Source of the DNA: Planctomycetota bacterium
GTDB taxonomy: Bacteria > Planctomycetota > PUPC01 > DSUN01
Length of the DNA stretch: 18,713 nucleotides
NCBI GenBank assembly: GCA_016872875.1
Contig: VGYW01000133.1
Coordinates: 1-18,713 of the forward strand
Direction: 5' to 3'
Shown here: positions 12,746 to 13,798 of the stretch, in pieces
How the letters are laid out: each line of letters opens with the position of its first letter
Position numbering within the stretch: the stretch's first letter is position 1
Notes under the pieces: model-generated
The model's input: the letters and a program-made list of their open reading frames with translations, nothing else
What the model was told of the DNA's origin: nothing
The model's database searches: none
Translations under genes and position numbers: made by a program

Positions 12746-13798
12746 ATGGTCTCTGGGCAAACGGGCGGCGACGCGGGCGAGCCGTTCCGCGCCGAGCTCC
12801 TGCGGCAGCTCCGCTCGACCTATGGGCCGGCGGTGATCGAGCCGGAGAACGGCTCGGCCGGCCTCTACGCCCTGATGGGCCAGGTGGGCCTCCTGGAGCG
12901 CCGCTGCCGCAACCCGGTGCTGGTGGCCGCGGCGCGGGGCGGCGGCCCGAAGCTCGCCCTCGCCCAGGCCATCGGCCGCCACGACGCGGCGGGCAGCGAC
13001 CTCGTGGCGGGCTGCGTGAACGAGGTCCTCGCACGGGGGGCGCTGCCGCTGTTCTTCCTCGGCCACCTGGCGGCCGGGGAGCTCGACCCCGCGGTGCCCC
13101 TCCAACTGGTCAAGGGCATCGCAAAGGCGTGCCGCCAGGCCGACTGCGCGCTGCTGGGCAACGCGCGGGACTCCCGCCCTGACGCCTTCCGGCCGGGCGA
13201 GTACGACCTCGCAGGCTTCGCCGTGGGCATGGTGGAACGCGCCCGCGTGCTCGACGGCGCCGAGAAGGTGCGCGCGGGCGACCTCGTGCTAGGCATCGCC
13301 GCGTCGGGCCTCGGCGGCAGCGGCGTGGCCCAGGCGCACCGCCTCCTCGTGGAGGCTGGCGGCCTGCGGCTCGACGCCGAGCCGCCAGGGCTCGGCTGCA
13401 CCCTGGGCGAGGAGCTGGCGAGGCCCACGCGGGTCCACGTCCGCTCGGTCCGCGCGGTGCTCGAGCGCTACCGCGTGAAGGGCGTGGTGCACGGGCTTGC
13501 GCACGTGGCCGAGGGCGGGCTGGCCGGCGCGCTCGCGCGCCTGGCCGGGCGCAGGTGCGTGGCGCGGGTGGAGCGGGCCAGCCTGCCGCGGCTGGCCGTG
13601 CTCGACCTTGTTCAGCGGTTGGCTGGCCTGTCGGACGACGAGATGCCGCGCGCGTTCAACATGGGCGTGGGGATGGCCGCCGTGGTCGCGCCCTTCTATG
13701 CTGACGCGGCCATCCGGCGCGTGCGCCGCGCCGGCGACCGCGCGGCCGTCATCGGCCAGATCGCCAGCGGCAACGGCCCAGCGGCCGAGTTCGTGTGA
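12746..13798 (+). CDS. PurM-like (AIR synthase family) protein with degenerate active site
   Basis: The 350-residue product aligns by eye over nearly the full length of PurM (phosphoribosylformylglycinamidine cyclo-ligase, step 5 of purine synthesis): RHDAAGSDLVAGCVNEVLARGALPLFFL, then PGEYDLAGFAVGMVE and FNMGVGM all match the family scaffold in order. The signature residues are missing, however. SGTDGVGTK becomes AAARGGGPK (61-69), GGETAEMPG becomes GNARDSRPD (138-146), SGxHSNG becomes SGLGGSG (187-193), the Asp of CVND is Glu93, and TGGG becomes AEGG (255-258). The N-terminal VDIDAGN segment is absent. It is therefore unlikely to bind ATP/FGAM or catalyse the normal reaction. The start at ATG 12746 is fixed by a promoter at 12672-12700; its RBS is weak (GAGG, 11 bases). 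A CBS-domain gene follows. Likely a paralogue kept for binding or regulation, but its role is unknown. Confidence 0.85.
   Translation: MVSGQTGGDAGEPFRAELLRQLRSTYGPAVIEPENGSAGLYALMGQVGLLERRCRNPVLVAAARGGGPKLALAQAIGRHDAAGSDLVAGCVNEVLARGALPLFFLGHLAAGELDPAVPLQLVKGIAKACRQADCALLGNARDSRPDAFRPGEYDLAGFAVGMVERARVLDGAEKVRAGDLVLGIAASGLGGSGVAQAHRLLVEAGGLRLDAEPPGLGCTLGEELARPTRVHVRSVRAVLERYRVKGVVHGLAHVAEGGLAGALARLAGRRCVARVERASLPRLAVLDLVQRLAGLSDDEMPRAFNMGVGMAAVVAPFYADAAIRRVRRAGDRAAVIGQIASGNGPAAEFV

Follow-up and report, generated by a model that had tools for sequence, protein, structure and literature searches.

The 18,713-nucleotide stretch of Planctomycetota bacterium DNA analysed here (contig VGYW01000133.1, positions 1 to 18,713; the window) carries an open reading frame (ORF) for a 350-residue homologue of PurM that has lost most elements of the PurM active site and that belongs to a clade with the same losses. 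It is proposed, with moderate confidence and from sequence comparison, that the original purM of this lineage was converted in place to a non-catalytic protein. This protein would be kept as a binding protein docking a partner through its C-terminal domain, and the catalysis would have moved to an acquired PurM of a different subfamily, called here the EEPGSK type after its motif.

The PurM scaffold recognised in the earlier note on this DNA is clearly present. Both AIRS domains of Pfam (PF00586 and PF02769) score above their cut-offs, and the top PDB PurM chain is matched at E 5.6e-62. The NCBIfam PurM model TIGR00878 gives 231.3 bits, narrowly below its cut-off of 236.35; three of the six scanned members of its clade (P0011, P0021 and P0042) pass this cut-off. 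The thiL model of the same superfamily reaches 15.8 bits against a cut-off of 184.15, the PurL model is likewise far under its own, and selD and hypE are absent from the NCBIfam matches listed for the protein, the sequence being clearly nearer PurM than ThiL, SelD, HypE or PurL. The frame is free of stops, as had been claimed, and the open stretch extends upstream as far as 12488. The promoter-like site at 12672-12700 implies the ATG at 12746 as the start, rather than that of the longer, 384-residue database model P0001.

Every substitution named in the earlier note is found in the protein: TDGVGTK has become ARGGGPK, GGETAEMPG reads GNARDSRPD, HSNG reads GGSG, CVND is CVNE (residue 93), TGGG is AEGG (residues 255-258) and the VDIDAG motif is missing from the N-terminus. 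In addition, FLDY has changed to FLGH. The set of four PurM ligand loops (DGVGTK, GGET, HSNG and TGGG) is not retained. PMC5919458 proposes Asp94, His247, Thr249 and Arg259 as the catalytic residues of E. coli PurM; two of the four equivalents, the Asp (now E93) and the Thr (now A255), are lost, whereas the His (H253) and the Arg (R265) are kept, so the claim of lost catalytic signatures holds for the first pair and not for the second.

These changes are shared by a whole group of relatives. The best 120 of 4533 homologues above threshold were compared after a search with the window protein, and the best 120 of 6473 from a profile search contributed 44 new proteins, giving 164 distinct ones. 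The same losses occur in 17 of the 164 (16 from the first listing and P0241 from the profile search), and the substitutions are thus not a lone oddity. The 16 among the best 120 have no Asp in DGVGTK, Asn in HSNG or Thr in TGGG, no intact FLDY or GGETAEMPG motif and no VDIDAG N-terminus, although P0007 is too short to reveal its N-terminus. None of the 16 has the complete set of the four catalytic residues proposed for E. coli PurM. Since the same elements are gone in all 16 members compared, the loss is, judged by this alignment, not due to chance. In a 57-row tree, the 16 form one group (88/57, or 99/95 without P0042; 91% of 200 bootstrap trees) nested within canonical PurM of the Brocadiia type; P0241 is not in the tree. 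P0013, which is sister to them (92/94), lacks the equivalents of Asp94, Thr249 and the HSNG Asn and retains GGETAEMPG and VDVEAG; by its motifs, it is a half-way state.

The gene lies where purM is found in a canonical relative. In L001, a locus from a Planctomycetota metagenome-assembled genome (contig VGYV01000016.1, genome G001), a family 2 glycosyltransferase (GT2; 86% identity), the pseudo-PurM (66%), MutL (78%) and a beta-helix protein (71%) correspond to those of the window. In genome G002, the order GT2 (68%), PurM (54%) and CBS-domain protein (61%) is the same, and the PurM (P0025, named as a Candidatus Brocadiae protein) is canonical by motif. Because of this common gene order, the ORF is, by position, the orthologue of purM, and its origin as a duplicate or second copy is ruled out. 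The good promoter claimed earlier corresponds to the promoter-like site: both hexamers, TTGACA and TACACT, and their 17-base spacing are unchanged in all three loci, whereas most of the surrounding intergenic sequence differs.

Purifying selection was measured on one DNA pair, the window and L001. The NG86 method gives a nonsynonymous rate (dN) of 0.241 and a synonymous rate (dS) of 0.579, with a ratio of 0.42. Under a codon-frequency model, dS saturates and the profile yields an upper bound for the ratio (omega) of about 0.1, and omega = 1 is rejected (twice the log-likelihood difference, 2dlnL, 150). For 61 codons set as the active site, omega is loosely bounded (2dlnL 2.0 at 0.3, 4.6 at 0.5 and 12.7 at 1). 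The open frame by itself is modest evidence of selection, because 500 neutral simulations left it stop-free in 4.8% of runs at 0.3 changes per site and in 28.8% at 0.1. The low omega of this pair, together with the promoter kept in three loci, makes decay appear unlikely. Clade-wide loss of catalytic residues is thus accompanied by purifying selection, seen in the one DNA pair and in counts of protein changes. By these counts, constraint has shifted: 275 active-site changes occurred in the pseudo-PurM clade versus 50-79 in four canonical sets, and segments of the C-terminal domain show fewer changes than in any of the four, of which c1-c3 are groups of 16 assembled by motif and not tested as clades.

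G001 (8.9 Mb, completeness not stated), the genome nearest to the window, is the one genome of the clade that was examined for other PurMs. The PurM model matches the pseudo-PurM at 192.4 bits, a second PurM on contig C343 at 270.6-270.8 bits, above the cut-off, and, weakly, two superfamily hits. As to a canonical purM elsewhere, which the earlier note had in view, no DGVGTK-type PurM was found in this genome by the model search, and the second PurM is of another type. In this protein (P0121/L081), EEPGSK replaces DGVGTK, while GGETSEQPG, HTNG and ITGSG are retained. The family is well defined, with EEPGSK in 117 of its best 120 relatives, DEPGSK in the other three and GGETSEQPG, as opposed to GGETAEMPG, in 114. 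It is separated by a 100/100 split from the Brocadiia-type and pseudo-PurM proteins, as remote subfamilies, and its ATP site may differ from that of textbook PurM.

At E 1e-85, two of 392 sampled Planctomycetota genomes, G001 and G325, have a match to the EEPGSK type. Pseudo-PurM is recognised in G001 only among the 392, 29 of the 30 best loci having been re-read and the others judged by identity; the full set of four canonical motifs is present in 28 of the 30, the G001 pseudo-PurM is another, and the remaining locus, L125, was unread by the pattern. In G325, to which the PurM model was not applied, the EEPGSK PurM is accompanied by a PurL-like frame and a single weak match to AIRS_C, whereas nothing matches the window protein at E 1e-30; this gene content fits a self-sufficient EEPGSK enzyme. 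Genomes with the EEPGSK type alone were not recognised in the first 20 loci, six of which were blank for the pattern and the rest judged by the GGET and HSNG motifs only. G001 also has a PurL-like frame of 1077 residues with two AIRS_C domains, although no search was aimed at PurL. Displacement by an acquired PurM would be the simplest reading of these genomes.

In the proposed scheme, the ORF would be the lineage's original purM, turned non-catalytic in place. The conversion of formylglycinamidine ribonucleotide (FGAM) to aminoimidazole ribonucleotide (AIR) would probably have moved to an EEPGSK PurM acquired from outside, and this takeover would have released the old active site from constraint. 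Selection would keep the scaffold and the C-terminal-domain segments (residues ~223-252, 271-282 and 311-337). The product would be a folded, non-enzymatic binding protein, a scaffold or a regulator, no longer handling ATP or FGAM. It would probably be dimeric: according to PMC5919458, PurM acts as a dimer via an eight-stranded barrel, and the halves of the barrel strands distant from the active site remain conserved in pseudo-PurM. A macromolecular partner may dock on the C-terminal face, presumably at an exposed patch, and this role would be either a pre-existing side job of the enzyme or a new one. A structural or protein-binding role seems likelier than a new ligand, because the pocket residues differ between members, as expected if nothing specific binds; position 64 is G, A, R, C or S, position 256 is D, E, N, R, G or a gap, and the replacements at 106, 139-144 and 192 vary as well. 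Of the earlier suggestion of a purposefully retained pseudoenzyme with a new ligand or regulatory role, retention therefore stands, and the new ligand is weakened. More tentatively, PurM in this lineage might have held, originally or by later gain, a second role outside catalysis that was exposed when the acquired PurM replaced its chemistry. Constraint would then have left the active site for the C-terminal domain, and the half-way form P0013 is still extant.

Several points weigh against this scheme. The partner and the docking are predicted from sequence comparison, DNA was read for two members, and only intact frames enter the protein database. By NG86, the pseudo-PurM changes faster than its neighbours GT2 (dN 0.085, dS 0.584) and MutL (0.102 and 0.490), the values for the beta-helix protein being 0.196 and 0.341. 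The low-change segments were picked after viewing the Brocadiia comparison. The sliding window at 13-27, with p 7e-5 in that comparison, falls to p 0.013 in the four-set test, and the one at 49-63 (p 0.003) fails correction. The co-occurrence of both PurM types is known from one genome, G001, of unstated completeness. Contig C343 likely belongs to it, although the tests are weak: its tetranucleotide correlation with the pseudo-PurM contig is 0.83, and a G002 contig correlates with both at 0.76-0.78, which gives no separation. The kinship of the C343 enolase is mixed. Outside G001, the top match is G386, and the next are G009 and G007, both from the class of G001. Lower in the ranking come G006 and G005, also of this class; G004 and G008 are unmatched at E 1e-140, and the matches listed do not include G002 or G003. 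On these weak grounds, C343 as a contaminant was judged less likely. Finally, no second PurM appears on the 5.97-Mb contig carrying P0004 among the rows of three homologue listings; compared with the 8.9 Mb of G001, this contig may be partial.

The faster change could also mean that the displaced enzyme is in slow decay after the EEPGSK takeover, its conserved parts serving folding and solubility, and the greater tree length of the pseudo-PurM clade (4.41 versus 2.87 for the Brocadiia set) agrees with this. Such decay is considered unlikely in view of the low omega of the one pair, the chosen segments, which accumulate fewer changes than their counterparts in four working PurM sets, the identical promoter hexamers and the open frames in 17 clusters, though the database favours intact frames. 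Equally unlikely is that the old pocket still serves catalysis or the binding of a small molecule, with its chemistry altered. Part of the pocket is retained (N92, G257 and G258 in 16 of 16 members, K69 in 12, R265 in nine and H253 in eight) and omega = 1 is rejected even at the 61 active-site codons, but the member-to-member variation of the replacements, the lack of any complete set of the proposed catalytic residues and the excess of active-site changes argue against it.

A slightly less probable alternative places the protein in purine synthesis, as a regulator or non-catalytic subunit that would join the EEPGSK PurM or PurL in a heteromer. Both PurMs and the PurL-like frame occur together in G001, and the conserved barrel strands described above would suit it. 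However, the two PurMs are of such remote subfamilies that a mixed barrel is not obvious, their genes lie on different contigs, and no purine gene was recognised adjoining the ORF among the frames scanned in the window. That the ORF product still performs the PurM reaction of the cell, through a rebuilt active site, is very improbable, even though three scanned members pass the PurM cut-off, as the lost residues have no common replacement and G001 has another PurM above the cut-off.

Table 1. Features of the window around the pseudo-PurM gene
Feature	Position	Strand	Evidence
PurM-fold pseudoenzyme ORF, 350 residues	12746..13798	+	Pfam, NCBIfam and PDB matches; clade membership
Sigma-70-like promoter of the ORF, TTGACA-17-TACACT	12672..12700	+	Both hexamers identical in window, L001 and canonical G002 locus
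Former DGVGTK loop, residues 63-69, now ARGGGPK	12932..12952	+	Motif alignment (TDGVGTK to ARGGGPK)
Former GGETAEMPG loop, residues 138-146, now GNARDSRPD	13157..13183	+	Motif alignment
Former HSNG loop, residues 190-193, now GGSG	13313..13324	+	Motif alignment
Low-change C-terminal-domain segment, residues 223-252	13412..13501	+	Fewer changes in pseudo-PurM clade than in Brocadiia PurM
Low-change segment, residues 271-282	13556..13591	+	Fewer changes than in Brocadiia PurM; no sliding window here survives correction alone
Low-change segment, residues 311-337	13676..13756	+	Fewer changes in pseudo-PurM clade than in Brocadiia PurM
Divergent promoter of neighbouring GT2 gene, TTGACA-17-TAGAAT	12479..12507	-	Largely retained in three loci
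Family 2 glycosyltransferase (GT2), divergent neighbour	11553..12440	-	Identity 86% in L001, 68% in G002
Two-CBS-domain protein	13919..14335	+	61% identical in G002 beside canonical purM; no G001 match at E 1e-8
mutL, downstream, same direction as the ORF	14516..16297	+	78% identical in L001

The CBS-domain protein was considered as a required partner of the pseudo-PurM, an idea weakened by its missing match in G001. Long, GAC/GTC-rich inverted repeats lie on both sides of the ORF (12532-12623 and 13811-13902), the second with 27-nucleotide arms that are 100% complementary. In the aligned upstream region of L001, the sequence differs at the inverted-repeat site, possibly reflecting a lineage-specific intergenic repeat. 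A small protein without a Pfam match (10864-11553 in the window, 7926-8483 in L001) is a conserved neighbour with 48% identity. The linker stretch SSPLTHHASRITPLSF of MutL resembles, by eye, a translated DNA repeat within the gene. On the minus strand, 9417-10784 encodes a TrpB-like pyridoxal phosphate enzyme (NF009057, 744.6 bits), no further trp gene being recognised among the scanned frames, and a tRNA-Leu gene is located at 5576-5660. The ORF at 4518-5627 looks by eye like a small transposase associated with repetitive extragenic palindromes (RAYT-like); its piece 4863-5624 has no Pfam match at E 0.001.

The pseudo-PurM shares fold, length, genomic position, promoter and ~50-60% identity (window protein) with the Brocadiia-type PurM of TIGR00878, its parent group in the tree. 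It differs in lacking the active-site elements, VDIDAG and most ligand loops, and in the stronger constraint on its C-terminal-domain segments. The EEPGSK-type PurM, present beside it in G001, is likewise a PurM subfamily, but a remote one that keeps its own loop motifs and is likely the working enzyme; it is not the gene of the window. Pseudoenzymes in general retain an enzyme fold under selection without the catalytic residues. They are already known; what is unusual here is the conversion of an in-place orthologue rather than of a duplicate, a second PurM of another subfamily having apparently assumed the enzyme role, as well as the half-way form and the shift of constraint. In the open-licence literature, no report of a PurM pseudoenzyme was found, nor one of displacement combined with a pseudoenzyme.

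For genome annotation, the clade is a trap: since three of six scanned members pass the PurM model and at least two members (P0007 and P0021) carry PurM names from their sources, purine pathways may be wrongly called complete. For the PurM family, it provides a traceable case in which a central, normally conserved biosynthetic enzyme turns into a pseudoenzyme with no duplication of its gene and in which canonical, half-way and fully changed members are all represented, and makes it testable whether PurM has a role apart from catalysis.
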